Assembly: GCA_025345505.1 (NCBI GenBank)
Contig: JANVCC010000064.1
Location: 5,339,927-5,403,926, forward strand
Length of the DNA stretch: 64,000 nt
Direction: 5' to 3'
Source of the DNA: Todiramphus chloris collaris
Taxonomy: Eukaryota > Chordata > Aves > Coraciiformes > Alcedinidae
The stretch's first letter is position 1. Every line of letters begins with the position of its first letter. The position numbers and the translations under genes are program-made. Positions 7,850 through 36,868 of the stretch are shown piece after piece. Below the pieces are notes generated by a model, which did not search any database, was not told where the DNA came from, and saw only the letters and a list, made by a program, of their open reading frames with translations.

Positions 7850-9146
7850 TGCTCTCCTCCCTCGGCTCACGGATACTGCCTGGCATCAAGGTGCTGGTTT
7901 GTGAGGCAAGAGACCTGGACTGAAACTTCCTTGGGAAAGGAAGGAATCAAAAGTACACTTCTGTGTGAGCGTTCCAGCTCCATGTATGTCGGCTGGCAGA
8001 TGGCTCTGGCTGGATCTGGGATTAAAAACAAAGAGACTACAAAGAAACGGAAGAAATGGCTTCCCTTAATCTGGCAATTCCCAGAATTTACTAGGTGTGC
8101 TCTGAGAGCAGGCACCAAAGCAAAGCCCTGCAGGGGACAGGAGAACAGGCAGAATCACAGCTAGTTCCTGCATTCCAATCTGTTTCAGGCAGGACCTATG
8201 CACAGGATTACTCCGATGGGGCAATTCCAGGCATGCTCAGAGACAGAGATCTCTATGCTTGGGGAATGCAAACTCAAACAAGGAGGTGAGTTTAGGCAGT
8301 TCCTGCATTAGGGAGCCGCTGAGCGGGAATGTTTTGGATTGTAATGTAAAGATTATAATTACTGCATGTAAAACAAAAAAGTATACTAACTAATCCTTCA
8401 CTGTATATAATAAGATAGTGCTTCCTGCATATTGTCAGTTAAGATGCAATCCTATCTTCTGCAAAAAGATAAATAACTATCTCCCCTCTCCAAATGCCCC
8501 TGTTTTGCTTCACAATTATTTTTTTCCAGTGGAACAATGACTGCCCTTCAAAATATGTCTGGAAATCACTCTTTTACCATGTCCCTAGAAAGTCCACCCA
8601 ACCACAGCTCTTTAAACCTGTGGTGCTGGAGGAGGCAGCTCCCGAATCCCCCTGGATCCAACCGCATCCCCCCTGGTGCAGCGGGGAGCAGCCAGGCTGC
8701 CAGGGACCAAGAGGTCACTCCAAACACCCACCAAGAACGGTCCTCCTACTGCCTTCGAGGATCTGCCACAGGCCTCCAACACCAGAGGGGTCAGCAGAGA
8801 ATAGCTGCATTTTCTATAGCACACACCGAAAACCACACCAGCTGCTTACCCGCTTTTTGGGTTTACGCTCATCATAAACTCTGCCCCGAAACTAAAACCC
8901 TGTGTATCCCACAGGAATGGATGATCCTTCATGGCAAATGAGGGCTCAGGCTTGGAAAAATCATGGCTGCTGTAGGGACCCTGCAAACTTGAGATGACAA
9001 AGTACAGTACCGAATTGTCTCCAGCTGTAAAATAAGCACTGTGTCGCAACAGTCAGATTTCATAGGCGAATTCTTCAGATCAGAGAGCACAGCTTCTGTT
9101 TTGTGACCCGTAGGGGAGCACAACAGGCTCAAATAACGTGCGTTAA

Positions 9147-9155
9147 TATTTTATA
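9147..9155 (+). promoter_or_regulatory. Possible TATA-like element upstream of unnamed gene
   Basis: The AT-rich string TATTTTATA lies about 120 bases before the proposed start codon at 9278. Its place fits a core promoter with a short 5' UTR, but nothing else supports it. It could be chance, and an upstream non-coding exon would make it irrelevant. Confidence 0.2.
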
Positions 9156-9277
9156 TCAACCCATTGGCATGTTTTAACTTCCACTGACCATTAAATATTC
9201 AGCGGCTGCACAGAAAGCTCCCCTTACGCGCACGTCTCTTACATTTGGCGACTGCAGCCTCTCAGCGTGGCACAGAA

Positions 9278-12200
9278 ATGGCCCTTTTCCTCTGGGTTTT
9301 CTTTATTTTTTCAGGCCCTCGCTCTGACAATGGGGAGCTACGACTCCAAAACGACGAAGACTGCCCAAGTGGAAGTTACTGCAAAAGAGGAGAACAGAAC
9401 CTGTCCCGTTGTCCAGCAGGTATTTGGAGATAATTATTAGTTTCTTTCGAATGCTTCTTGGTCACATACTGCTCAATAAAAATGCAGGCAGGCTTTCATT
9501 TTACTGAAGGCTACAGAAGGGCTTAAACAATCAATCAGGTTTGCTGAAATTTATATTGCAAAAGGCAAGGAAGCTTAAACAAGTACAGAGCATTCAATTT
9601 TACCGTAATAAGGTTCACCTATTAGAAAACTTCCTTTCTGTACTGCACAGTAAAACAATATTGAAGGGGGGGATATTTTCATCGATGCAGAATTAATTTA
9701 ACCGATTTAAGTGTTATGACAACATTCAAACAGGAACAGCACTAAGTCATCTATCTCCATAACACAGCTGCATTATCTAAGAAAAATCGACAAGAATTTT
9801 TGTTGTTGTTTGCAGGCTTTTTCTGCCCTGAAGGAAGCATCACCCCACTTCCATGTCCTCCAGGAACTTTTCGTTCGGAAGGGGCAGCGCTGACACCACA
9901 CGGCTGCTTGGCATGCCCCGTGGGTTTCTTTAATCCCATGCCTGGCCAAAGAGCGTGCCTTCCATGTGGCTCCGAGGCAGCACAGCCTGCAGAAGGGCAA
10001 GAGACCTGTGTCTGTCTCGGGAAGGGTCAGGTGTTTCAGGTACAGGAGCTGCCTCACGAAAGCTGTCCGGTCTCATCACACATCTGTATCCCTTCATACT
10101 TCGCTCTTCCTTCTTTTCCCCTCATCTGCACTGCCCGTGTCAGTCTCTCTCTCTCTAGCATTGATAGCCTTTGGTCCAACACCTCATTTCCAATTTCACA
10201 GACCCTTAGGGACAAGGACACAATCTCTACACAAGATCTACCTTCTGAGTTTCCTCAGGGCTACGGCAACCCTTCCCCTTCACGGGAAGGTAAAGAGGAT
10301 GCAGATGGTCAGCAGTGTTTCATCTGACCTTGGTCAGATCAAGTGCAATGCCCAATGCAGACAGGTACAGAAAAGCATCTGCACGAGACTGCAGGTTTCT
10401 AAACAAATACCTATTTTTTTCTTCCAGCCCCGTGATGCTCACTGCACGTGCCCTCCAGGTTATTTGAGGTCCTTAAGTGATGAGAGACACTGTATCAGAC
10501 AAACATATGATGTTTGTCGAGATCCAGCCTCCCGAAATCAGGAAGGACAGTGTTTAACCAAGAAAGGATGGGTTCACTATTGCTCAGAGAAGGTATTTCA
10601 ATTTTTGCATTAGTTAAACCCAAAGACCGTGCAGAAACTGCCCTAAAAGCAAACTCCCAAGCTCTGCCTTCAGAAGGCAGAGACAGCATTGCATCCAAGT
10701 GTCACTTGTGTTTGCACAGGAGATTTTGCCTCTTCTTCAGCCTTAAATAGGAAGCCCAAATTTCCCTTCTCACCAAAGTCATTACTTGTACTGCTATTTT
10801 ATTCCCCACCGCCCCTTTTTTTTCCCCTTCTCTCCTACAGGTTTGTACTGCCCCTAGAGATTACCAAGGCTATGACAAGGTTCTTGGCCTCTGCATTTGC
10901 CAGACTGCCAGTCTGGAGAGCGTGTGTGATTCTCAGTGTAGAAGACAGCAAAGAGACACCGTGCAGGTCACTTGTGCAGAGAAAACTGCTCAGCTTTTTA
11001 TCACTTACAGAAATGGGAGCAAGGTAAAAGCTGCAGTCATTTTCAGAAGCTACCTGTTCTGGCAAGGCTTTCTAGACCTTTAATAATCTTTTAACCAAAG
11101 AATACCCTCATTCCTATTTTCTTAGAAAGTTATAGAAAGCAACAAACAAAATCCCCAGATATCATTCTATTACATGCATAACCTATATTGCTGCTTATAT
11201 TGAAACTGTGTGGAAAATTCATGTAAAAAATGTCTAAACTCTTTTTCTGTTAGACTGCTGTTGCCTTAGAGGAATTAAGAACAGTTCTACTAAGACCGTA
11301 TTTCTCTTTAAAAGACATCTGCCTTTCAGAACAAAGCAGATTTACCCATCCAACATACATCGTGAAAATGAGTGGTAAGTGAAAGAACAAGCACTGCCTT
11401 CGAATAAGAGGAATAGAATGAAAATACCCATTGGTTTTAGATTCTGTAAATCTTACCTGGGATCTTTGGTGAGTGGATAATTTATAAACTAGAAAGAAAA
11501 GCAAAAGTGACCCATGTTTGTTTGGTTTTTTTATACCCCTTCAGGGAAAGGATTTTTAGGGGTGTATAATCCAGACCCACAGCTATTACACAACTTCATC
11601 ATGCTGAATGAGGCTTCATCACATCACAAAAATAAGCCTCCTTCACCAACAGCTCCAGGTAAGATCTCCTGTAAAGCTCCCAAGCATTTATTTAATATGG
11701 ATTCTTTAAGATTTAATTGTGCTGTATCGTATCAACCATCTCCCCTGCTGCCCTAAATTGGAAACAACAACAGTTAAATCCAACAGACCTCACCATCTTC
11801 AAATTCCTGGAGAAGCTCTTCACACAAAACATAACAAAGTCAAACAAAAAGCTTCACTTTCTTTGCTCCAGAAGTCAGAACCTCCCCAGCCCAGACCCAG
11901 TGGTTAGCAGACTGCTTCCTTCTGGCTTTTTTCACCAGGGGAAATGAGGAACAGGGGCAGCTGTTGAACCCTCCACCTGTGGACCACAGCTGAGCTGCTC
12001 TTATTTCATCCCACCTCTCTCCTTGGGTTTAATAGTCCTGATGCACAGTTTAACTGCTGGCTTCAGTTCTGATCTACACCATCCCCCTCCTTAGCTTTGG
12101 GTGGGTCAGATCACTTCATTATTCCTTCCACCTGCATTCCTCTTGAGTCCCTCTTTAGTAGCTGCAGAGATATCATGAAATCTATAGGCAAGCCAAAGCT

Positions 12201-13685
12201 GACTGAAGAGAAAGGGACAAAGCCCTTACACAGGATGCTGAATTTGCAAGAAGTGCTGCTGCTTTGCCAGGGGCACCTCAGCAGAGTTGTTGCAAAAAAG
12301 ACAAGAAGATGTGGTGCCCAGTTATCCAATGGCAGGGAAATGCCAGTGGCATGTTTGTGGGCTGTCTTGGCAATAAACCTTATTCAGGAAACAAAATTTG
12401 CATGTATAAAGCATAAAAATGAAAAGGAAATGCTATATCCTGTAGTTGTTCTACAGACAAAAGAATGATCAATAATGATCCAAACCTAATGAGGTCTCTG
12501 CTTTTACAGCTAAGTCTGGCCATGAAGAACACAGGTCTCCCCAGGTACAAAGCCTGAGACCTTCAAACTCGACATCAAAAACCATCTTTACTGGCATCTT
12601 AAATCCTACCACATGCATTAATGTTAATGTCACCATCATGTTCATTGTCTCCAAGGAGCATTACCCAGTTTATGATGTGTAAGTATAAGTGCTAGGCATA
12701 GAAGAACTTAGCTAATGCACTTTTACTTGATCTAGAGAGAACAAGGCTGGTGTTTTCACTTTTTTTTTCAATATAGAATTAAGAGAAAAAATGACAAGGA
12801 AGAATAGAAATCTCATTATTAAACATACTTCGATGTCTTTTTGACACAAGAAGACGTGGCACAGTATGAAACAGCATGTGGCACAGTAGGAAACAGCACG
12901 TAAGACGTTAAGAAAATAATATTCACTTATTAAAATAAGCAAAATGAAATGTATGCATACTGTTCCTGATGACTTGCTGATGCTGTTTCTGACCTGTGTT
13001 CACACACTGTGCAGCTTGACTTCTCACTGACGTATGCTGTATAGTCCCTCTAGCTGACCCTAGGTTCTCTTCACTTTTTTTTTTGTAGTTAAGAAGTTTT
13101 AGGTGTAGTTAAGAAGTTTTGGGAAGCTAATCCAAAACGAAACAAGTAGTTCCTACTGCCCTGAAAGCCTCAGGAGCTCTGCCTTTGTGGCTTGTATGTG
13201 TTTGGGTGGGTTTGTAGGTTTCTTCCCCTATGGCCTGTTTTGATTTCATTTGTGCCCTTCATCAAGTTTCAGAGCATACAAATAACACCAGGGACAAGCA
13301 ATCAATAACAGAAACCTACATGTGGTTTCCATGTGCTCCACGCTGACATCTGCAGTGATTAAACACCTATAGGGGTCCCTGTGACTATTTCTTTATTGCT
13401 AAATAAACATCCATGCTGCTTAGGGTTAATTTCTGCTACTTCAAAAATCTCCCCTGTAACCATGAGTCCACACCAAAACCACGGGCACTGACAAAAACTG
13501 CCTCTTGTACTTCTGCTCCTAGAAACAACCTGTACAACACAAACCCTGAATTTGACTGGGGAGACCTTCGAAGCCTCAGAGAGGAAATAAGAGAAGCCTC
13601 CCAAAAATTCCTCCTCTTCCTTTTCCAGTTCCAGTACCCTGGCACCTACGTGCTACAGCTGAGTAGCAACCAGTACAAAAAAATG
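9278..13685 (+). other. Ectodomain exons 1-8 of the unnamed gene (Cys-rich, ephrin-receptor-like)
   Basis: Coding exons: 9278-9419, 9816-10039, 10428-10592, 10841-11023, 11254-11374, 11545-11658, 12510-12678 and 13523-13685. Exons 1-4 encode closely spaced cysteines in the pattern CPxGxYC, CPAGFFCPEG, CPPGTF, CPVGFF and CTCPPGY, typical of GCC2/GCC3-type repeats of ephrin receptors and TNFR-like modules. Exons 5-8 encode a cysteine-poor region with N-glycosylation sequons and a mixed beta/helix look that I do not recognise. The donor of exon 8 (ATG|GTTCGT) is weak, but the frame into exon 9 is intact. Confidence 0.8.
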
Positions 13686-16600
13686 GTTCGTATCAAGCAA
13701 TCCGGTCTTTGCATTTACAGCATCCCTCTTAGGAAAACATTTCATGTTCCATGTGAGTGTTTGGAAACATGGGAAATTAAGAAAAAATATAGGCAGCACC
13801 TTTTAATTTTTTGTATGTCATAATGTACAGGTGAGTAGAAGAATAAATACGTGAGCCTGCATGCGTATGTGCTGCATGTGTAAGTGCCAAATGGTGCAAA
13901 TGCTGCAAAGCTTTGACTCGGTGTAACAGAGAAAAGAAGGGATTTCAGTCAGCATGGGTATGTACATCAGAGCAATGCTGTGTGACTGGCCTTTCTACTG
14001 ATGCTCATCTCGTTCAGTACCTCAGGGTCATGCCACTGGGAGGACAGTGCTATGAAGAGGGGCCGTTCTTCCCCACTACACCCAGACATGCTGTGCAGGT
14101 TGGCATGGCAAAGAAACGAGACCTCCTCCTGAAACCTGACTGGACAGCCATTACTGGAGTGATCACAGGACTTCTCATGTTGCTTATTGCCTCTGTGGTA
14201 CTGACAGTAAGTAATAGTTATGGGAACTGGGGGGTTTTTTAAGAGAATATTACAAGATTTTGTGCAATGAACCTGCAAGGTACCCGTTCCCTTAGGCATC
14301 ACCTGGAAAGTTGAAAAACAGAATAAACTGTAACTCAGTGTCATGTTTTATACATGAGATAAAAATCACCCAGCAGCATCAAAGCCCCAATATATCTGCC
14401 TGTTGCATAGGCCACTTGGAAACACTGAAAGCATAAATTAATTTCATTCCTATTTTCTGATTCATTAGCTCAAACCATAATACAATTCTTCACAACTCAC
14501 ATCTCTTCAGGAAGGAATGAGATCATCAATGAGATGATAATTATTTTTTCTTTAATATTTGACCAAGCTTGCCTCAAAATAAAGAGGACCTGGATAACTT
14601 GCAGAAAGCTATTGTAAAGAACTGTCAATGGTGAATAAAATTCCCCAGCGGTCATTCGTGTGACATTCAGTTCTGTGCTCCTTATTCAGATAAAAGTCCC
14701 AATGCCCACAAGATACCTGAGAAAAGATGCACTTTTTCACAATTAAAAACCAAGATGGTCCTTCAGACCGTTAATCCCCCAAACAGCCATTCCTTTATGT
14801 TTCTGGCATGTTCTGAAATCAATAGGCTTTTTATGCAACCAGACTACTGAGCTAATAATAGAAAATGTGATTTATTCATCCAGCAGATCCAAACAACAGA
14901 TAACTATACTTCCTTCCCCTTGCTTTCAGACTTATCTGCTGGGATTACCGACTCTTCTGTTTTTGAACAGATTGATGATGTGCCTAGAAAACAGATTCTT
15001 GGGTTCTTTGCCGAACAGCTGCTGATACATCCCACTTGTTGAGTGGGATAATGTAGGAATCACACTAAAAGAACATATCAAAATAAGAAAATGAACTTAG
15101 TTGTTTGATTCTGTTGTGTTTTGCAGCTTCTCTGTCAGAGACTTAGCTGGTCTCAGAAAGGCACTACCTGCCCTCCATTTCGAAGGCAGCAGCTGAAGTA
15201 CAATCTGGACAGCTATTCCTCCAACGTGCCAACAGCCTTTTCCATTAAAAAATGTCACCCCTCGCTGCAGAACAAAGGTAGTATGGATTATGACTCTTGC
15301 AGCACTGATGGAACAGGTCAGCTAAAAAAAAGGCTAAAAATAGTGAGTCTGCCTGGGTACTTGCACGTAACAGAGCCAGAATCCCATGTTCAGCACTGTG
15401 GCATGGCTGCTGAATTCAGTGACTTACATGTATCCTCTGTTCAAAAAATAATCCTTAAATGAAAGAAATACTAATAAATGAATATATGTGTTTCAGCCTG
15501 CTTCCTGAAAAGGAGTGATGTTTGGGAGCCCGAGGAACAGATAGACCTCGAGTCATTCAATACCAATGTTTTCTTTGAACTTTTGCTGCAACAGTCGCTG
15601 TCTGTCACAACCAAACTGGGCCATTTCAAAGAAGAGGTAAATTGTGTTATGGGGCTACTCATATTTATGCACTAAAACACGTCACTTGGGCTGTTACCAT
15701 TGTTTCATTACCATTTGGCTGTTAGGTACATGCTTTATTTTAACTGTCATCTTTTTAGAACATGGAACAAATACATACCTATATTTTTAAGTATGTTGTT
15801 TATGACATGCAATACAGTGGGAAGAGTAGTGGCCTTAAGACAGAGCCTTTTGGTTTTCTTATGGTTTTGCACTGAACTGCTACCATTTTGGGGAAGTTAT
15901 TTGCTCTTCTAGCTTCATTTTTTCATCTGTAATACAAAAAGAATATAGATTTTCTAGTCAAACTCCTAAGAGCTTCAGAGTTAACTGAGGAGAAATATGA
16001 ATGAATTAGTTAATACACAGTAACACAAATAATGGAGTCTCATCCTGTTATTTGATTTTTGATAATAATCTCTCAGCTGCAATCCATGGGACAGCATTTG
16101 AAAACCCTAATAATGAATCTGTAATACTCATCTAACTTCACTGGTGGCTCTGAGGACAGTAGAGGGAGCTGGCATTACAGCAGGCAGCGCACTGACGAGG
16201 AGTGTGGAGAAATGATCGTACCCTCATCTGAAGTGTTTTGCTATGAAAGCTCAGACAGCAGCAGCCCAAGTCATCTCTTGCAGTCCTAATATAATTTATT
16301 TATTTAATTAATTTACCTCAGGTGAAAACTATATACCGCAAGCTTACAGGTGAGATATCTTCCCTGAAAAACCTATGGATAAAGACACTGAATAGCCCAG
16401 AAGAGATGGAAGTTTATGAAAGCACAACGACAGAGGCTTACTTAAAAGCAAAACAGCAGGTACAGCTCAGTTCAGCAACATTTACACATGGAATAACAAA
16501 CGTAATCCTCAGTATTCTCTTTTCACAATTTTAGGCATAGTCAGGTTAAACCTTACTTTTGGAATGGTCGACATTTCATATTTCATAATCTGAAAGATTA

Positions 16601-19600
16601 CTCGTTTTTAGCTTTCTTTTCTTGATCTACATCCATGCACCACCTCTCTTCTTCCGGGAACTCCTGCCTGTCTGCATCAGCAGCAGAGGTTTCAGCTCTG
16701 AAAACAGCATAAATTCATCTGCTTGAGTGTGTGTTGCAACTTCTTTTTCCACGTCAGAACTGTACTTGTTTCTATTGTTGTAAAAATTCTGGGAATGAAA
16801 TGATTTCATGTCTTGAAAACAGTAATATACTCATTGTCTCACTTGGAAAAATAGGTATGCCAAGCAGTAAGGAGTTGCAAAAGCTGACTCTTTTTTAAGG
16901 ACTTACTACATCACTTGTTAAAAGGTACCCTAACTCACTAGTTTACTCAGATCTGGATATACACTGATCATTTACGTGCTAGATAACTGTAACTCAGCGT
17001 ATCAGAGTTGTCAGCATAGGTATGCTCAAACCCAAATGAACACATCAAAATTATTTTACATTTCTAACCTTTGCCATTTTAATAACGGGCATAAAAAGGA
17101 TGATCTCTGCTTACATTTAAATAAAAAAAACAACAACAAAAAAGAGACATTTGGATCTTATATCCCACCTAGGCAGAAGAAGAGATACAGCAAAGGAAAC
17201 GGTTGGCTGCTGAATATGAGGAAAGCGTGAGCAAACAGATGCAGATACTAGAGCATGATCTGAGGTGTCAGGAAGAGCACTGCCTCATGTTCAACTCTGC
17301 CGTGAGAGAGGTGCTGAGATTGGCAGAGATGCTGACAAATAAGGTGGCTTGTAAAGGAAAGCAAGCAACGCTGTCTGAGACAGACTATACAAGGTAATAA
17401 AAAACCTGTCAAATTCTGCTGCGGGTTTCTTCTTGCTAGCTAGAAAGCACTTGTGGCAAGCAGTTAGGATGGCTCGTGGGTGTATATCTGGGAGCTGAAA
17501 ACTGCTTCTTGAGCCAGAAGATCAGATGATGCAGATCGTGATCTGCTCTAGTTTTGTCCTGCTCTGGCAGGGGGGTTGGACTTCCTGATTTTCAGAGGTC
17601 CCTTCCAACCCCTAACGTTCTGTGATTTTCGCATTTTCACATCAAGCAAGGCTAGAAAATATCAGAGACATAAACTCTGAAGAGACTCTTGTGCTACCAA
17701 CCCGTTTGGCTCTGGGACATCACAGCAGTTCTAGTGAGCGTGCTGTCCACTCTCTCACAGGCCTTACAGCCATCAGAATGGTGTAATTAACAACAAAACA
17801 GAGAAACAGGAAAGTGCATTTTTCAGCGCATTAGCCAAAGCAAATACTCATCAAGCTCTCTAATTGCCAAAGTGCACAGATCATTTATATGTCCATCAAA
17901 ATCCTTCCTTTACTGCTCCCCTTAAATTGTTTTAGCTTATCTTCAGATGGCTTATCTCATCTCTATCTCCAGCCTGTTAGCCCAGATAGAGGCTGCAAGC
18001 AGCAAGATGTCAAGCCTAATCAGAAAGGAGAGTCAGCGCCTCAAAGCCTGGGGAGTGCTGGGTGAAGGAACGGGAGCTCACCTTCTTAACAACGCTAAAA
18101 CCAGGATCCTTACCAAGCAGGAGCTAGTGGGTAACTACAACCTCTAGAAATTCACTTGAAAATTATGTTAGCGTCTTCTTGGGAAGAATGTTAGATTTGC
18201 TTTAATCAAGATCTTTGACTTAGTACTTGCTAATTATCCCCTAGCAACAGAGAGGGAAATGAACTATTCTGTAGGTAAGCCTCAAAGTTCAATTCATTTG
18301 CTTATATGTGCTTGTCTGCTTTCCAATGTTGTTGCATGTGTTTTGGTAGGACAAAACATAAAAGGTACCCTGACACCAAGACACCTCTTTCTTTCATCCT
18401 TCTAAAAGGAAAAGAAGTTAAAAAAGGACAATGAAACCGCCCTTGTACGTTTAAATCAGTGTGGCAGACAGAGGGAATGAAATCTAAAATCCTGAAAGGA
18501 CATCCATGAGACATCAATCTCCTCACTTTTATGAAACTCAGGCGGACACGGCAGAGAAATAATCCAATTGCCATGTCCTATACCCACAGGCATCTTCTGT
18601 AACAGGCAGTAGCAAGATCAGTTTCTTTATTCTCACCCCATCTCTGCCCTTGCATAGAATTTCTGATAAACTAGGAATGCCACCCTTCTGCAAGGCTTGC
18701 AGGCTGCTCCTTCTCCACCTCTCTCCTTCTGTTGTACAACTGCTTTCAGACTCGAGTGGAGCTGTCAGAGCACCTGATGTCATCTCCATGGACCCTGTCA
18801 CTGGGCTGTTAACTCCCTACCCACACCACACCATGCTGCTGACATCCCAGTGCCCTGGGCCGGTACCCACCAGTCATTTTCTGCACCCCGAGACTGGGAA
18901 GGTTCTGGACATAGCTGGTAACGTTGGCTATGATCCCACCAGATCTAGGCTGCTCTGTGCTGTTGATTCTACTGCAGGTAAGTGCCACAATGCAATAATC
19001 AATTAACCTACCATCTATTTGTGGAGTACAGTCACAGTGGGGGTACTAGTTAAAAAAAACCCAAGCAACCAAAGCACAAACCCCCCCCCAACTTGCTATC
19101 CTCACATGTACTTTTCCCATAACAAAACCTAAAGCAAACCTGAGAAAGCTTCTCAACAGCACGACACCAGAACTATTAAAAGATAGTGATGTTCAGCCAG
19201 ATATAAGACTTACTGTGGATGTGTTTGAAGTTACCAGGTTTGTACAAGGAAGTTTTGAGGTATTCCTTGTTTCTGAGAGAATTCAGCCCCCCTGTTCATG
19301 GAGCTATAAAATCACTACATGCTAAAAAGCTTGCAACTTCAAGAGGATGGTCAAAGCAAAAATTAATTTTTAAAAATCCCACACAAATGAATGAATGTAA
19401 TTCATTCTGACAATAACGACAACAAACCTTTTCTACCAGCACCCTCTGAAATCTCCACAGTCTCCGTTGCGAAGCTGACATCGCATTAAGTTCTCATAAC
19501 CATGTTAAATTTCTTCTGGTTCTACACGTAGGTGAGCGTCATAAGCCTGAAGTGCCCATATTTCCCTACATTCCTTACCCAGTTTGTCCCAACACTGGCC

Positions 19601-22600
19601 TGCCCGTGAAGACAAAACTTCCAGTCCTGCGTCCTGAAAAGATGTGTAGTATGGGAGGACTCATGCTGGATCCCGTGACAGGAATAGAAGTGCCGGTGCT
19701 GGCGGTTACGATCCATCCTCACACTGGGCAAAAGCTGACTGTTGGAGGGACATACCTGAACCCCTTTACTGGCATGTTGGCACCTCTGGAAATTGGGGGT
19801 CCTATGACCGAGCCAGGGGGAGGGAAGATCGTTCCAATACTCGGAGTCGGTCTGGACAGCAGCACTGGTAGGTGAATGCTCTTCATGGCTCACTCAGTGT
19901 GGCATGCACTGGGTCCTTTAACCTGACTGATGCGAGGCACAGACCAGGATGAGCCCAAGAAGTCTTTATGTTCACTTCACACCTTTACCTTCTGTCCATC
20001 CAACTGTGGAACTTAGCTTTTACAGACAGTAATCCCTCTCTTTTCTATAGTTTGAGTTTACAGTTTATCACTCTAAAGGTCAAAGACTATCGAGTGAATT
20101 TGAGAGAGACGTCTGAGGTAGTAATTTGTTAAGTATAACACAAACTACTGAAGTTGATTTGACTCTTAAAGATGGTCCAGTTGCTCCATTAAATACAAAA
20201 AGTAGCATGAAGTGCATTGGTTAGAGGCTTGGTGGGGACGTGGTGAAGTTCTAGATTTTTTTTTAAAGCATTTTCACATACCTATAATTTTTACAACTTC
20301 TGTTAGAAGATACATGAGACCCAAAGAAAAGGAGTGGGGATCTTAGGTCTCCTACTTTCTGCTTTAGAAGATTATTTAAGAACATTATGTGAATCAAATT
20401 GTTTTATAAAGAACCTCAAACATCCCCCCAGCCCACGTGTCCCACGAGACCTAGTTCCGCTTCGTACCTTTTTCTGAGTGGGAAGGACTGGGCCATAATG
20501 AGGAGTTCCCGGGTGATGTTCTGAATCTCCTTTCCTGTTCCTTGACTGCAGGAGAAGTTATACCTCTGGGTGGGTTGGTGGGTCCTTCCGGAAACCTAAT
20601 GCTTCTTGGAGATTCCTTCACCGAGCCTCTGAGTGGGAAAACAACCCGTGTCCACGGAGCTCACGTCCGGCAAGGCGCGGTGCGGCCCCACGGTGGAGGT
20701 CACCACGCAGCGCTGGATGCTCAGTGGCTGCTCTCGCAGAGCCGCGTGCTGAACGCTCTGAACCGGTTTCGGGCATCACTTTTGGAAGATGCCTGCCCAG
20801 CAGCAGACAGATTAGCAGCGCTGAAGGCTTCAGCTGAAGATATGAAGAAGTCTTTCACCACTAGGTTTTATTATGCCATACATTGCTTGCAGAGCCTAGA
20901 GAGAAAACGAGAAATAGCTTCAAGTCTCAAGAGTAATGGTGGTAAACTGGGTAGGTATCAAACAACCGGCCTGTTTTAAGGGGTAAACAGATGTCATTAC
21001 ACTGAAGGCTACAGCAATTCACCCATTTCCATCACAGGATCTGGCCAACACATCAACACCTCAAACTTTTTTGTCAAAATAGCTACTCTGGCAAATCCTA
21101 CAACGAACTCGGCCAGTTGTCATTTGGAAGCTGTAGTAGATATAACAGCACTGTAAGGCTCTGAGAGCAAAAGCAGTTCTTTTTCTTTACAAAACTAATG
21201 GTTTATGTTTCTCATCTTTTTTGAACAAACTAGGTATGATCAAATATCCTGCCACAGAGATGTGGATGCCTGCAGTGTTTGGAATGAAAATCCCAGATCC
21301 TGGTGGGTCTGGCCTGATGGTGCCAATACTGGGAATAGACTGTGACGGGAATACCAGGCAGCCTTCCCCACTTGCAGGAACCATGGAAGACAGAAATGGA
21401 AAAGGTAGAGCAGGAAATGAATCGGGTGATGTAAACAATAATAAGACAAGGACATGTTATTTTCAGAGTGAGGCAATCATCCTACCAAAACAGATCAGTT
21501 TCTACCTCGGCACTGAATGGAAAATACCAGTTTTCATGGTGTGTACATTCAAAACAAGCAACACTAGAATAACAGTGGAGGAGAGCTAGGGCTGAGACCA
21601 AATCACACCGTGGCTTTCAGCCCTTCAAAAGTCCACTGTACTCTTTAGGAGAACAATTCTGATACTTTTCTCAGTGATGGAGCCATAAATAGATGCTATC
21701 TGAAGGTGCAGGTCTGCAGTGCCTTGGTCCAGCGCTTGGTATAATGCATTTAGAGCTCAGGAAAATTCAATCTGGTTTATATGAGATGATTTGAAATCAC
21801 TGTCAGTTTCTTTTGAACTTTAACAAAAGCTGTTCACTAGGGCTGCAGCCGGAATTCGTGATCTAAATTCTAACCATTATGCTGAGGTTTTTAATTTATC
21901 CACAGGTCTTGTCCCCATCACTATTGGGGCCAGAGCTGTAAGTCCAATTACAGGTGAAATTGGGCCTGTAATAGGTGCTCAAACCAACCCCTGGACACAC
22001 AATGTCATTCCTACTGTTCAATCTCTTGGAGCTTTACCAAGAAGAGCTACAGATCCAGATCTGGTAATTATAACTCCAGCAAATTATCTTTACTGACAGG
22101 TTTGATATCTTTGGGAAATTCATTGCTGATGCTTTTCCACTGCTGAGAGGAAATTTCACTTCTTTCTATGACCCACAAGTAGTATTTTCTTATAGTGCAA
22201 GATGAACTGAAATATGTCATTTTACTTACCTCACCTCTTTTCATTATCTGCTTTTTCTCTCCCTTCTATCTGTATTTTCTCCTGCAGATCTTTGTACCCT
22301 CTATTTCATATCATTCCCTTACCTCAAAATACACACTGCATTTCAACACGAATTATAACACACACACTTAGAACTGCAAAGCATTCATCCCCTGTGGCAG
22401 CAAAGTTGGATCTCTGCTGTCAAAAGCATTGAATGGAGAATTCATCACTAGCTTCAATGAAGTTTATAATCTTCCTTCAGCTTCCTGCAATTCTGAGCTA
22501 TTATGTCTGTCATTGCTTTACAGCTGGACTTTCTAGAAAAGGAAATAAATTCAAGGCAAATGTACTGGCATTGCAGAAGAAAAAAGGAAGAATGGCTTCT

Positions 22601-25600
22601 TAAAGAGATGGACTCTCTGTTTCTGCATGTCCTTGATGCTACAAAAGAGGGGAAGGCACAGAAGGTATGGGGCATTCCTTTTGCAGATGGCTTCAGGAAA
22701 GTTCTTTAAAAATTCCTTAAGGAAGTCTTGTTCAAACCTGTCAAATTCAAATAGCACAGGTGCTGCAGCCAGGACAGTGGTGGTCTGAATCCTAGCCACC
22801 TCCTTCCCCAGTACTGTGCAAAACAAAACTGTAAATGGAGGCGTTGCAACTTCAGTGCAACCACTGCCAGCATAAGGGAAGGGTGTCGGGTGTCCCAGCG
22901 TGATAACAATTCTCATTCAGCACGTGTCTATACACAGCAAAGGCAACATGATTCACAGTGGTATCAGAAACGGGGGATTTGCCATCAGTTTATACACAGA
23001 ATAGCCAAAAGACTTGGACAAAGCCACCATCAAAGTAAACGACCTCTTGCTCTCCTCTGTCAGAAGAAAGAGTATCAGAACAGGCCACTATCTCACAAGC
23101 CTGCAATGTTATCTACAACTCCCTCTCCTCTTCCATTTCTTACAGATAAAATACAAGGAAAAAGTGAAAGGCATTGAGGAAATGTGCCATCTTCTCCAGG
23201 AGTCCTCTCTGCAGGAAGTGGAGAGGCGAACCTCAAAGTATATTAGTAGCCAGCTGGCCACCGAACTATCCTTGCTGTTCAGAGGTACAAAAGGGTACAC
23301 AAGAGGGGGAGGCAGGATTGTGCGTAATTTTCTGTGATGTTTGCTCCCTCTGACAGGTTATCTTAAGACTTACAAACTCCTTATGTCCTCCTGAAGCAAT
23401 ACAATACAGAGGTAGGATCTGGAAATTGGGCTGTTCTAAAAGATAAAGAACGTAGATGTGGTGAAGCACACTGAGAATGTATATTACTACAGGTTTGCTC
23501 TGTGGATTTCCAGTAGATGAACAGGTGGGTGCTACTGCTAATATTTGCTGTTTATAGCTGACAGAGATGAAAAAGAACAGGAAACACAGGTTCTGTTGGA
23601 GATCAGAAAGGCACTGGAGAAGCTGATGGCGTTCATTGAGAAGGTACGACTAGAAGAAGAACGAATATACATGCAGCAGATAGAGTGGGGAAAGCAAAGG
23701 AGCCACATCTCAAGGACGGAGACAGTAACAAACCTGAAGCTCAAAAAGGTGAGGTCACTGCTGGATTGGGCTGAACATCCCCACTCTCAGTCCCCAGAAC
23801 ACACCGGTCTACCTTAGAGAAGCACTGTAAAATGAAAGCTCTGAAGCCAGCATACTGTGATATTTCCCATGCTAGGAACTATTATAAGCCATTTATAAAG
23901 AGTTGTTCCTTTCCCACTTGACCATTTCTCACTCCCAATCATAAATAAAAAGAAATAAAAGTAGAATGACAGCCATTAAGAACAACAACAAAAAGAAACA
24001 GTGAACACTCTAGTCATCATGGACACCCAGCACTCAGATATTGAACGACAGACATTTAGGGACAGCAATGTCTCATTCAACTGTGCAACTGAAGCTGGAT
24101 TTCATTAAGGAAGAAATTCAACAGAAGTGCAGAACAGCAGTGGGTGAGCTAAGAGCAGACACAAGCTGAGCTTCAGAGTTAGGGAAAAGACCTGACAAAA
24201 CCTCTGCGCTTTCCTTTAGTTTCCTGAGCGGAGAAGATTCTCCTTACACCAGGAGCTGAGCAGGGAATAAATGCAACCTCCTGTATAAAATCACAGCTAT
24301 TAGATCTGGAACAGATCTACAAAGATCCCATTGCTTTCTGGTCAAGCTGAAGTAAACACAAAGCTTTTTACTGACCGAACAGATATCAAATAGACTTTAT
24401 TGAAATCTATGCCAGAAAGCTTTCTGGTTTTTTGGCCCTTCATCACATCATCTGCAGTTTCCAGGACTGTTCTCTAACAGCTACCCAGACACCAGTGCTT
24501 TAGAGTTGTTACAGTGACACCAGCTTTGTAGCTAGTGACTTGCCAGATGATGTGTAAGAAGGGAAATGAAAGCCAGGATTTGCAAATCACTCGAAGAAGG
24601 CTAATATTTTGTAACGTTTCTTCCAGGTCATACTTGCCCTAGCTTCTGAGGCTCAAGAGTGTCTACTGAAACAACAAGCTAGTGTGGAGACTGCGTACAC
24701 CAAACTGGAGTATTTGAGGGACTTGTCCAATATCCAAGCTCAGCAGGCAAAGGTACTGACTTTGCTTTAAGGCAAAGAAAAAGCAATCACATTACTCACT
24801 TTCTAACAACAGCGCGAGCAGTCGCCGCGTTCTCAGAATATCCTTCCAAGAACACTGCTGCCAGGAATCAGAACCCTGGAAAATGACAAAAAGCTTAAAT
24901 GAGAATTGCGAAAGTTGATTTACAAAGTACACATCAAAGGCTTTAACGCTTGAGAATTCAATCAAATTTCACTTTCAAATGCAGTTTTTCAACAGCAGGA
25001 TTCGAAGGAGGTTAGAATAGGCTGGAATAGCATAACCATAACCATTGCAAAAGGCTTTTAAATTGCTGAGGCAAAGTGCTGTGGCATCTTATTGAGTCAC
25101 TGGATAATCTGCATAGGATTGCTATGAGATAACAATATAAGGTGTCCACGAGAAAGCAAAGAATGCCAGGATACTTTTTTTCCAATTATATTTTTGACAG
25201 GCATGAAATGGCCCTTTCTGCTCTGTGTTATTACAGGTGCTTTTCTCCGGGTCACAACAGTGCTTTGAAAACTATCAGACAAGCAGATTTTATGGCATTA
25301 GTGGGATCTCAGACAGCACATGCAAGGTCATCCAACAAAACCTGATTCCCCTACTCAAGTCTGTGGTTCAGATGCTGGAGAAAAATAGCAAAAGCAGTGT
25401 GTCAGCTGAGATGACAGGTAAGAGAGAAGGCACTGTCAGTTAACTCATTTTATTCTGGCCTTGAAAAATTATGTTGTTGGAACTTTCAACTTTGAAAATC
25501 CAAACAGAGATTCTCCCATCTGACAAGTGGGACGCTGCCAGAGGACGTATGCACAACAGAAATGGCATACTGGTTTTTAAACACAGAGCCTTGTGTTGCT

Positions 25601-26585
25601 GCCAGGTACTCCAGTGAATCAGGAATTAAGTAACATGAGTTTCACAATGCAGCTACTACTTACTCGATTTTTCTATCACCTCTGTTTCCTCTTGAAAAAC
25701 CAGTGATTTTAGCTGAACTGGGAAGCCTGCAGATTCATTAGCACTTTAGAACCAATTAGTTGCTATTTAAACAGTATTCTCTCATGTTTCTTCCATAGGC
25801 TACTCAGGACTGAGCACTTTAAAAGCATCTGCAGCTCGTTCAGAGGCAATAAGGACTGAAACAAGTCAGGAAACCACTTCAGCTTCCCTCACATCACCTG
25901 CTCTACCCACTTCACATTCAGAAAGGAAAAGCCACATACAAGAAGCCCAGACAAGGTAAGAACTCCTTGGCCTGCCCTGTTTAGTTGCTTTCTGCAAGCA
26001 ACGACATCCTTGGCAAACTGGGGAAGGCTTGTATCTGGGGTTTGTGTGTGGCTCAACAGAAGATATCTGTTACAGTCTACTGCTTGTTCTCCAGCCAGCA
26101 ACAAGTGTATCATAGTAATGAATATATAAAAATACTTTTTAAATTAAAAGACAGATGTGATTCAATGCCAGGGTCTCTCTCTCAGAGAGACTGGTTACTG
26201 CTCTGTAAGCTACCATCGCTTTGTCAGTAACAGAGAACTTAAGTTCTAGTGCAATTTATCTTTCTGGTTTGCTATTCCATGGAGTCTATGAATATCACTT
26301 TGAACAGCAACCTTTTTAGTGTCTGATTTTAACCATTTCTTTCCCTTTTTTAGCTTTGAAGAGGAAATTGGTGCTTGCTTGTCCCCTTCAGAACTTGAGG
26401 ATAAAGTGGATGTGTTAACGGAAGAGCTGGTGCACGTCCTAGAGGATGAAGACCAGTTTTTAAACAGTAAAGGCAATGAAGACTTGCTTGTTTACTACCT
26501 TGAAATAACTAGTTTAGAGAAAGATTGCTTGATAAAACAAATAAATGCATTAGAAGAGAAAATAACCCTCAGCAGAAAGTTATAA
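9278..26585 (+). CDS. Unnamed 26-exon gene: single-pass membrane protein with Cys-rich ectodomain, coiled coils and xPxTG repeats
   Basis: I cannot name this gene. Twenty-six exons with GT/AG borders and matching phases join into one frame of 1578 codons plus stop. The order is: signal peptide (about 1-16, core LFLWVFFIF), Cys-rich ectodomain (about 29-240), glycosylation motifs NGS 235, NST 336 and NVT 356, membrane span (about 469-491), then about 1085 intracellular residues. The intracellular part has coiled coil (about 555-758), xPxTG repeats (about 770-980 and 1082-1180), a helical insert (about 1005-1080), coiled coil (about 1191-1450) and an acidic helical tail. The start at 9278 has a purine at -3 and G at +4, and an in-frame TGA lies at 9185 with no other ATG between. 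A splice-acceptor-like TTTTTTCAG at 9306-9314 leaves open an upstream first exon. The gene ends tail-to-tail with BTG4, with a poly(A) signal at 26659. Function is unknown; the ectodomain resembles GCC2/GCC3 (ephrin-receptor-like) modules. Confidence 0.85.
14018..14206 (+). other. Transmembrane exon (exon 9) of the unnamed gene
   Basis: This 63-codon phase-0 exon ends with about 22 uncharged residues (ITGVITGLLMLLIASVVLT) after a KPDWT stretch. This is a classic single membrane span at residues 469-491. Together with the N-terminal signal peptide it predicts a type I protein with the Cys-rich part outside and the repeat and coiled-coil part inside the cell. Confidence 0.85.
15127..18130 (+). 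other. First coiled-coil exons 10-14 of the unnamed gene
   Basis: Coding exons: 15127-15277, 15497-15636, 16322-16459, 17173-17393 and 17973-18130. Exon 10 encodes a basic, Cys-containing juxtamembrane stretch. Exons 11-14 encode long charged heptad-like helices (for example KAKQQAEEEIQQRKRLAAEYEE spread over exons 12-13). For exon 14 I chose the acceptor at 17971-17972. The earlier AG at 17945-17946 would put a TAG in frame, whereas the chosen one restores S-L-L-A-Q-I-E. Confidence 0.75.
17545..17630 (+). mobile_element. CR1 LINE 3'-end fragment, sense
   Basis: The stretch with CAGGGGGGTTGGACTTCCTG, then GAGGTCCCTTCCAACC and TTCTGTGATT, is the hallmark 3' end of avian CR1 retrotransposons read in the sense direction. 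It lies in intron 13 of the unnamed gene and is a short 5'-truncated copy. Confidence 0.8.
18750..22063 (+). other. xPxTG repeat block, exons 15-19 of the unnamed gene
   Basis: Coding exons: 18750-18977, 19532-19867, 20552-20950, 21234-21404 and 21906-22063. Tetra- to pentapeptide hallmarks recur: DPVTG (774), HPETG (805), DPTRS (821), CPNTG (854), DPVTG (882), HPHTG (897), NPFTG (912), EPGGG (929), DSSTG (944), EPLSG (972) and SPITG (1150). From 882 to 976 the spacing is 14-17 residues, usually with a VPI/VPV-like triplet between. Every internal junction in this block is phase 1 and splits a glycine codon. The second half of exon 17 is instead helical (about residues 1005-1080) and interrupts the array. 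Confidence 0.8.
22524..26585 (+). other. Second coiled-coil and C-terminal exons 20-26 of the unnamed gene
   Basis: Coding exons: 22524-22664, 23146-23284, 23558-23748, 24627-24752, 25237-25417, 25799-25955 and 26354-26585. They encode alternating acidic/basic helices likely to form coiled coils (about residues 1191-1450). A Ser/Thr-rich, probably disordered linker follows (exon 25), then an acidic helical C-terminus ending in a basic SRKL and TAA. No catalytic motif is visible. Confidence 0.75.
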
Positions 26586-26658
26586 TAGTACTCAAAGGAA
26601 GAGAGGATGGTTTGGTCCTAGCTTGGTCCTCTGTGTTTATCCTCAAGGCTTAGGCCAA

Positions 26659-26664
26659 AATAAA
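26659..26664 (+). terminator. Poly(A) signal AATAAA of the unnamed gene
   Basis: A canonical AATAAA lies 74 bases after the TAA stop, followed by a T-rich stretch, as expected for a short 3' UTR. Confidence 0.75.
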
Positions 26665-26689
26665 GCTTGTATTTTTGTTTTAACTATAT

Positions 26690-27710
26690 AGTGTATTTTT
26701 CCCTTTCATAGTAAACACTCATTTATGCAGGAGTGAAAACAATGTGGTAAGTGAAATGACAAGACTTTAACTTATATTTCTGGCTATATCCCAGGGGTGA
26801 AGAGAGAAAGGGTGTTGCAAAAGCCCAGACTCAAATGTTCCAGGAAAAGCAAGCTAAGTGGTAAATCTGCTTCCTATTAGAAATAAAATACTTTACAACT
26901 AATGCATGACTCCACTAGATGTTCTGAAGGGCTGCAGGCAGCAGCTGCTAGTTGCACATTACAGCATTTTGACTAAATTAGCCAGAAAGACAGAACCTAC
27001 TTATAACACTTCTGTAACCCTTATGCCCCACACTTAAATCAGCATAGAGTGAAGCAGGTGACAGTGTCAGGAGGACAATATATCCCAAGTCACAGAGATT
27101 CCCAGAGCTTAAAATCACATATTTTACTTCATACTGGAAAGGATAGTCTATACCATAGCTTTTACATCCAGTAGTAGCCAGGGGGCTCTTTTCTAGTAAA
27201 AGGGGAGTCTCCAACTGCCTGGAGTTCTGGACTAGTGGAGGTAAAGTTTGAGTGCAGCTGTCCAGAGCTGTGAGAAAAAACTGGCAGGGTTGACATGCTT
27301 AGAACAGCTCCATCATTCTTCCAGGTGATGCATTGGCTTACAGCTGAGTGAAGCTACAGAAGCAGCTATTCACCCCTCTCTGGCCCCTGAGACTGTGTTC
27401 TTCTGGAGGGGAAGCAGTTCCTAGAGGCAAAAACAGAGCTGGAGCCCCAGATCAGTCATCCACAGCTGTATAGACCAAAGTTTCACTCAAAGGGAGCACA
27501 GCAGTGATTCTGCTTGTAACCTGCAGATGTTTTGCTCTCAATGGAGCTCCCTTTTTTCTTCCCCCCTGGCAAATGTATCAAACAAACCATCTTTTAAAGA
27601 AACTCAGAGGATATTTTTGTCATGCAGTGCTTGCTTGTGATTTCACCAAGAAGTTTTAACTCCCTTTAGGGCACTGATAGCAGAGCAGACAGCTTTTAAA
27701 AAACCAGGAG
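26690..27710. other. Convergent intergenic spacer
   Basis: About 1 kb between the poly(A) signal of the unnamed gene and that of BTG4 on the opposite strand. I see no exon, RNA gene or recognisable repeat in it. Confidence 0.5.
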
Positions 27711-35948: not shown

Positions 35949-36032
35949 GTGCTTGGTTTGTAGGCAGTGTAGTTAGCTGATTGTATCCGTTGCGTCACAA
36001 TCACTAACTTCACTGCCATCAAAACAAGGCAC
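35949..36032 (+). ncRNA. MIR34B: mir-34b precursor hairpin
   Basis: This 84-base stretch folds into a hairpin with paired ends GTGCTTGGTTT and AAAACAAGGCAC. The 5' arm carries TAGGCAGTGTAGTTAGCTGA (mature about 35961-35983, seed AGGCAGU or GGCAGUG depending on the 5' end). The 3' arm carries CAATCACTAACTTCACTGCC (35998-36019), the miR-34b-3p type. miR-34 family members are p53-responsive and act in multiciliogenesis and spermatogenesis (family knowledge). The position, in a pair between BTG4 and LAYN, matches the vertebrate mir-34b/c locus. Confidence 0.97.
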
Positions 36033-36790: not shown

Positions 36791-36868
36791 AGCCTCGTTA
36801 CTAGGCAGTGTAGTTAGCTGATTGCCAAAAGTAACAATCACTAGCCACACAGCCAGGTAAAAAGGTTT
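36791..36868 (+). ncRNA. MIR34C: mir-34c precursor hairpin
   Basis: The mature 5' arm AGGCAGTGTAGTTAGCTGAT (positions 36803-36825, ending TGC) equals vertebrate miR-34c-5p. The 3' arm AATCACTAGCCACACAGCCA (36836-36857) is the miR-34c-3p type. The flanks GTTACT and AGGTAAAAAGG close the hairpin. It lies about 760 bases after mir-34b on the same strand, so both probably come from one primary transcript. Confidence 0.97.

Follow-up and report, generated by a model that had tools for sequence, protein, structure and literature searches.

The closest described systems to the gene reported here are proteins carrying Ephrin_rec_like, or GCC2/GCC3, domains (PF07699), a group that we take to include SCUBE, SVEP1 and the Eph proteins. 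Such domains occur also in adhesion and complement proteins (PMC6993872), and in Babesia GCC2/GCC3 proteins are displayed at the surface of the sexual stages (PMC9843837); both bear on the present gene by analogy only. The DNA analysed is a stretch of 64,000 nucleotides (nt) from the bird Todiramphus chloris collaris (contig JANVCC010000064.1, abbreviated C45 in coordinates; C45:5339927-5403926), hereafter the window. CR1-like sequence, noted by eye, fits an avian origin. On its + strand, positions 9278-26585, lies a 26-exon gene whose product, as read from its sequence, is a GCC2/GCC3-like surface protein with its own tail repeat, and which forms with a paralogue a two-gene branch for which no name was found. 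We tentatively regard the product as a single-pass protein of the cell surface that would serve in adhesion or as a tether, its tail acting as a scaffold; to this function we would give a little less than an even chance. Among the papers listed for GCC2/GCC3 or Ephrin_rec_like terms, whose subjects include thyroglobulin, Ephs, Babesia and Toxoplasma, none had such a vertebrate protein in its title or the opening part of its abstract.

The exons were re-derived by eye from the raw sequence and then joined by script, which gave 4,737 nt of coding sequence, or 1,578 codons followed by one stop, with no internal stop. All 25 introns are GT-AG, and the phases are consistent across all 26 exons. The parts of the gene are as follows.

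9278-9419, + strand: exon 1 (residues 1-47), proposed start, hydrophobic N-terminus and first Cys pair; the true exon may begin at 9315
9816-10039, + strand: exon 2 (48-122), GCC2/GCC3-like module, from Pfam search and paralogue alignment
10428-10592, + strand: exon 3 (123-177), Cys-rich, cEGF-like below cut-off, from Pfam search and paralogue alignment
10841-11023, + strand: exon 4 (178-238), Cys-rich, last of the ectodomain Cys cluster, from paralogue alignment
11254-11374, + strand: exon 5 (239-278), ectodomain, from paralogue alignment
11545-11658, + strand: exon 6 (279-316), ectodomain, from paralogue alignment
12510-12678, + strand: exon 7 (317-372), start of the conserved membrane-proximal domain, from paralogue alignment
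13523-13685, + strand: exon 8 (373-427), conserved membrane-proximal domain; weak donor, ATG then GTTCGT
14018-14206, + strand: exon 9 (428-490), end of the conserved domain, juxtamembrane KRDLxLxPxWxAIT and most of the membrane span
15127-15277, + strand: exon 10 (491-540), end of the membrane span and start of the cytoplasmic tail
15497-15636, + strand: exon 11 (541-587), tail helix weakly common to the paralogue (aligned residues 558-601)
16322-16459, + strand: exon 12 (588-633), helical tail segment
17173-17393, + strand: exon 13 (634-706), helical tail segment
17973-18130, + strand: exon 14 (707-759), helical tail segment
18750-18977, + strand: exon 15 (760-835), start of repeat block 1
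19532-19867, + strand: exon 16 (836-947), core of repeat block 1
20552-20950, + strand: exon 17 (948-1080), end of block 1, then the long helix
21234-21404, + strand: exon 18 (1081-1137), repeat block 2; weak match to block 1, E 0.93
21906-22063, + strand: exon 19 (1138-1190), end of repeat block 2
22524-22664, + strand: exon 20 (1191-1237), proline-free segment
23146-23284, + strand: exon 21 (1238-1283), proline-free segment
23558-23748, + strand: exon 22 (1284-1347), proline-free segment
24627-24752, + strand: exon 23 (1348-1389), proline-free segment
25237-25417, + strand: exon 24 (1390-1449)
25799-25955, + strand: exon 25 (1450-1501), Ser/Thr-rich linker
26354-26585, + strand: exon 26 (1502-1578 and the stop codon)
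26659-26664, + strand: AATAAA, candidate polyadenylation signal, separated from the stop codon by 73 bases

A crude gene finder, which combined splice matrices drawn from general knowledge with codon usage counted over 618 codons from other genes, scored its best exon chain at 160.4 on the gene strand. The reverse strand scored 51.9, and none of 40 dinucleotide shuffles exceeded 18.2. Thirteen of the 26 exons were recovered exactly, and the chain read by eye scores 127.1 on the same scale, below the optimum of the finder. An earlier version with harsher site filters, superseded by this one, recovered 7 of the 26 exons (score 92.5, reverse strand 19.4, 12 shuffles at most 13.4). This control places a gene here and does not alone fix every exon boundary. 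Two splice sites are weakest on the finder scale, the donor of exon 8 (GTTCGT) and the acceptor of exon 18; the join of exons 8 and 9 is supported because the paralogue aligns gap-free across it. The first-pass annotation had called this a real, intact gene of 1,578 codons in consistent phase, and both the rebuilt chain and the shuffle control agree. No point was found in favour of a decaying pseudogene, and the 1,578 codons without stop or frameshift, together with 25 usable introns, make one highly improbable, close to negligible. A scan for DNA repeats inside the gene gave nothing bearing on the finding. Intron 7 contains two short tandem duplications, one of 22 bases at 12856-12899 and the other of 20 bases at 13077-13116.

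The start codon is uncertain and may be wrong. The stretch translated as a hydrophobic signal, LFLWVFFIFSG, doubles as a polypyrimidine tract that leads into an acceptor at 9315 with a score of 6.1. The gene may accordingly be longer than modelled, with exon 1 internal and beginning at 9315, and with a missed first exon that would encode the real signal peptide. This acceptor (ggttttctttattttttcag, followed by GCC) outscores all but one of the 25 acceptors in the model, and an exon that begins there would be phase 1-1, like the GCC exon spliced in the paralogue. Against a longer gene, CpGs peak at 9001-9250 (11 in 250 nt, compared with 2-8 in the other seven 250-nt intervals of 8001-10000), the modelled ATG, read directly, has the context gaaATGG, in which position -3 is a purine and +4 is G, and the 53 kb upstream yielded no further GCC module. 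We consider a longer gene a serious possibility, at clearly less than an even chance; it would be compatible with any of the functions weighed below, whether adhesion or tethering, ciliary or gametic.

Residues 29-222 are Cys-rich, and the best Pfam match of the gene is PF07699, at 21.4 bits for residues 1-238 and 19.6 bits for the whole protein, relative to a curated cut-off of 23.1. The cysteine pattern can be aligned to this family, with residues 77-108 falling on profile positions 10-41 (E 0.00021), and a trace of cEGF is also present in the ectodomain below the Pfam cut-off. The GCC-like pattern CxxGx[YFHW]C has one match in unspliced positions 9001-27000; a second, CPAGFFC, is formed across exons 1 and 2. 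Over the whole protein no Pfam family reached its cut-off, and no PDB sequence match was found in searches at E 1 or, for other queries, E 10. A single membrane span is predicted at residues 475-493, with a Kyte-Doolittle value of 2.73 (1.50 for the next non-overlapping segment). The membrane-proximal domain has two cysteines, C352 and C438, that are conserved with the paralogue, as is the juxtamembrane motif KRDLxLxPxWxAIT. The initial description of a type I membrane protein with a GCC2/GCC3-like ectodomain, one span and no named counterpart is thus retained in part: the span stands, the GCC2/GCC3 similarity is present below the Pfam cut-off, and the type I orientation holds only if the N-terminus is right, the signal peptide being doubtful. 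The lack of a named counterpart holds for Pfam at cut-off and for the PDB.

The protein is not an orphan, a point on which the earlier interpretation needs amending: a paralogue with about 50 GCC-like motifs lies on the same contig, 1.9 Mb from the gene, at approximately C45:3406000-3437600 (its ends are not fixed). In whole-genome searches, which covered the 1.17-Gb genome, the full protein found its own exons and four places within C45:3411257-3431301 (best E 2.7e-10; 30 of 36 candidates scored, so that weaker places may have gone unseen). The region has 51 matches to CxxGx[YFHW]C on the + strand of 37 kb, a few of which may be intronic, and none on the minus strand. Nine membrane-proximal exons of the paralogue (C45:3431084-3436214) were spliced by eye, chosen partly by similarity, and the product aligns with residues 45-494, from the ectodomain through the membrane span, with a score of 417 compared with a maximum of 55 in 300 shuffles; this gives independent support to exons 2-9. 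Without the GCC part, the alignment (residues 346-495) scores 195 against a maximum of 55. Because similarity helped to pick the paralogue exons, the unspliced tblastn matches from a 60-kb search matter here, the GCC part matching at E 2.4e-11 and two membrane-proximal stretches at 1.3e-4 and 2.5e-4. Across the aligned domain the two proteins agree in 48 of 145 columns, including the two cysteines and the KRD-L-L-P-W-AIT motif.

The intron after K238 lies no more than one residue from an intron of the paralogue, both being in phase 0, and several others differ in position, which suggests an old duplication. When the non-GCC module of the paralogue was searched against the genome at E 10, it matched its own exons; the only other matches were to exons 9 and 8 of the window gene, with all 8 candidates scored. 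A genome search with PF07699 itself returned 20 places at E 0.001 or better, with neither the window gene nor the paralogue among them; the two thus look like a branch separate from the other PF07699 matches. Within this branch the homology is colinear from head to membrane, and the large GCC array is confined to the paralogue. Matches of the paralogue to the PDB are weak and include Eph receptors (best E 0.16). A pattern search with exon 9 for relatives in viral contigs gave 50 pattern matches, of which none was confirmed. Beside the paralogue, on the minus strand at approximately C45:3460574-3473589, lies a P-type ATPase gene, a piece of which has potassium-transporting ATPase alpha chain 2 as its closest PDB match; we take it to be ATP12A.

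The tail, of about 1,085 residues, is about twice the length of the head and contains two repeat blocks, at approximately 766-1000 and 1081-1190, with a long helix between them. The blocks are homologous to each other (score 89, compared with a maximum of 59 in 500 shuffles), and residues 766-1190 hold eight [DNHSEC]P.[TS]G motifs where 2,000 shuffles gave a mean of 0.16 and a maximum of 2, a count that upholds the Pro-Thr-Gly repeat array described at first pass. The period of the repeat is not sharp; in a self-comparison of block 1, offset 47 was highest and 15 second. As a query against its own genome the repeat was convincing only at this gene, with four other places at E 0.92 to 9.2. The coiled coils proposed around the array are supported at residues 1001-1080, where none of 200 shuffles reached the heptad signal, and are borderline at 561-770 (reached by 11 of 200). 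An AlphaFold 2 (AF2) single-sequence model of exon 17, used for its helix alone, has a mean predicted local distance difference test (pLDDT) score of 59.8, with a helix across model residues 50-128 and block means up to 93.

It could be argued that two neighbouring genes have been merged here, a receptor encoded by exons 1 to about 12 and, from about exon 13 to exon 26, a separate cytoplasmic protein of repeats and coils. A search for a P-x-[TS]-G cluster in the 100 kb around the paralogue found none, which leaves the second half not shown to be shared. The phases are nevertheless unbroken over all 26 exons, and beyond its span the paralogue has a tail helix akin to residues 558-601, so that the receptor does have a tail. 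Two merged genes are, on this basis, quite improbable.

A Cys-rich head and a conserved domain outside the cell, one span, and a long tail of repeats and helices suggest a receptor that binds a partner outside the cell and a scaffold within it. As an adhesion receptor or tether, the protein would use its Cys-rich head to bind a partner carried by another cell or by the matrix; the paralogue is one candidate. Since the paralogue shares the head-to-membrane module, this module probably governs how the protein is presented or paired at the membrane. The tail may pair through its helices, with its repeat blocks holding cytoskeletal or cortical partners.

Several observations weigh against this assignment of an adhesion receptor. 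No fold was assigned to the membrane-proximal domain, profile searches with it giving no match (best E 0.59, unrelated), and the repeats likewise match no Pfam family and no PDB chain at E up to 10. An AF2 model of exon 16 was discarded as uninformative (mean pLDDT 38.8), leaving the repeat fold unassigned. The heptad signal is not significant in the two C-terminal segments for which coiled coils had been claimed, being reached by 40 of 200 shuffles at 1191-1430 and by 110 of 200 at 1501-1578. What reads as a signal peptide may instead be a polypyrimidine tract, in which case the topology would depend on the span alone. Homology of the paralogue tail is weak, with the exon after the span scoring 50 with residues 558-601 compared with 41 in shuffles (z 5.7). 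Finally, the genome-wide paralogue query reached the exons of the window gene only at E 1.2 and 2.4, and the homology of the two genes rests on the spliced alignment.

The genomic neighbourhood offers another view of function. BTG4 (PF07742, E 2.9e-45 for its joined pieces) follows the gene tail to tail, with the two stop codons approximately 1.35 kb apart, and beyond it lie two mir-34 family precursors, at 35955-36025 and 36796-36862. BTG4 and mir-34 are active in the germ line or in multiciliated cells. The same gene could thus encode a membrane protein of the cilium or sperm flagellum, with its head outside the cilium and its tail on axonemal or basal-body structures. Neighbourhood is weak evidence, however, and no X-box was found near exon 1, the window having 3 matches compared with a shuffle mean of 3.57 and a second scan 2 compared with 3.73; such a box near the start is common in motile-cilium genes and not universal. 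A ciliary role is considered unlikely. A further proposal, that the gene encodes a gamete or egg recognition protein paired with the giant paralogue, would suit a two-member branch on one contig and recalls the GCC2/GCC3 proteins on the apicomplexan sexual-stage surface, as described in part of that source (PMC9843837). The apicomplexan proteins are distant, offering a domain analogy only, and nothing here shows that both proteins meet, so that we judge a gametic pair improbable.

On the other side of the gene, exon matches to POU2AF1 (PF09310) lie at C45:5292963-5295848, which is 44 kb to the left of the window; the distance to the gene, which lies downstream of them, is 53 kb. POU2AF1 was placed by its Pfam model, its short motifs having given nothing usable in the window. 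The reported position between POU2AF1 and BTG4 is therefore correct, though POU2AF1 itself falls beyond the edge of the window. With open frames as the only criterion, no convincing gene was seen between POU2AF1 and the gene. A 253-residue open frame lies between POU2AF1 and the window (C45:5333422-5334180, + strand), and a Pfam search at E 0.01 with residues 1-180 of it gave no match. The mir-34 precursor at 35955-36025 is above cut-off on the minus strand too. After the precursors come a C-type lectin gene and a kinase gene, which we read as LAYN and SIK2, respectively. HOATZ was not found with short motifs, a result that proves nothing.

In human, miR-34b and miR-34c are arranged head to head with BTG4 (PMC7074044), which fits the order found here. 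The genes given in part of a report on the cat, within 1 Mb either side of a single-nucleotide polymorphism, include POU2AF1, BTG4, C11orf88 and LAYN (PMC8813908), as do those in a portion of a human linkage table (PMC6834745); neither list names an evident orthologue, and neither shows its absence, so that they bear only indirectly on the loss in mammals suggested at first pass. A broader proposal is that the two genes would constitute an ancient vertebrate receptor family of contact partners, lost from placental mammals, with one member compact and bearing the long repeat-containing tail, and the other carrying about 50 Cys-rich motifs. Their shared membrane-proximal domain would have an ephrin-like, copper-free cupredoxin fold. 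What we take as its likeness to the ephrin ectodomain is a GTYVxx turn late in the domain and two conserved cysteines; Pfam and PDB profiles gave the fold no support (best E 0.59, unrelated). Taken together, this proposal is rather unlikely.

If expressed and conserved, the two genes would form a sizeable receptor-like pair without a name, perhaps as the window gene is missing from the mammalian gene lists cited, and its tail adds a repeat matched by no Pfam model. The pair would then be a concrete test case for mammalian losses at the cell surface. Interest would rise further if mammalian loss and pairing with the giant paralogue were borne out.

Compared with known systems, the gene resembles the Ephrin_rec_like proteins in its cysteine spacing and CPxG motifs, and differs from them in falling below the curated cut-off of their family (21.4 compared with 23.1 bits). 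Unlike the Eph receptors, it has no Pfam match for tyrosine kinase, SAM, fn3 or ligand-binding domains. Its tail recalls the plakins and desmosomal proteins, presumably as membrane-to-filament linkers with DPxTG-containing repeats; the repeat region differs from plakin repeats in matching no Pfam family even at E 10, plectin repeats included. The paralogue differs in the roughly 50 GCC-like motifs that precede the shared module, and in its surroundings, where a search of 100 kb turned up no P-x-[TS]-G cluster. In common, the two have GCC2/GCC3-like motifs, a Cys-rich stretch, the membrane-proximal domain, the KRDLxLxPxWxAIT motif, a single span and the first helix of the tail.

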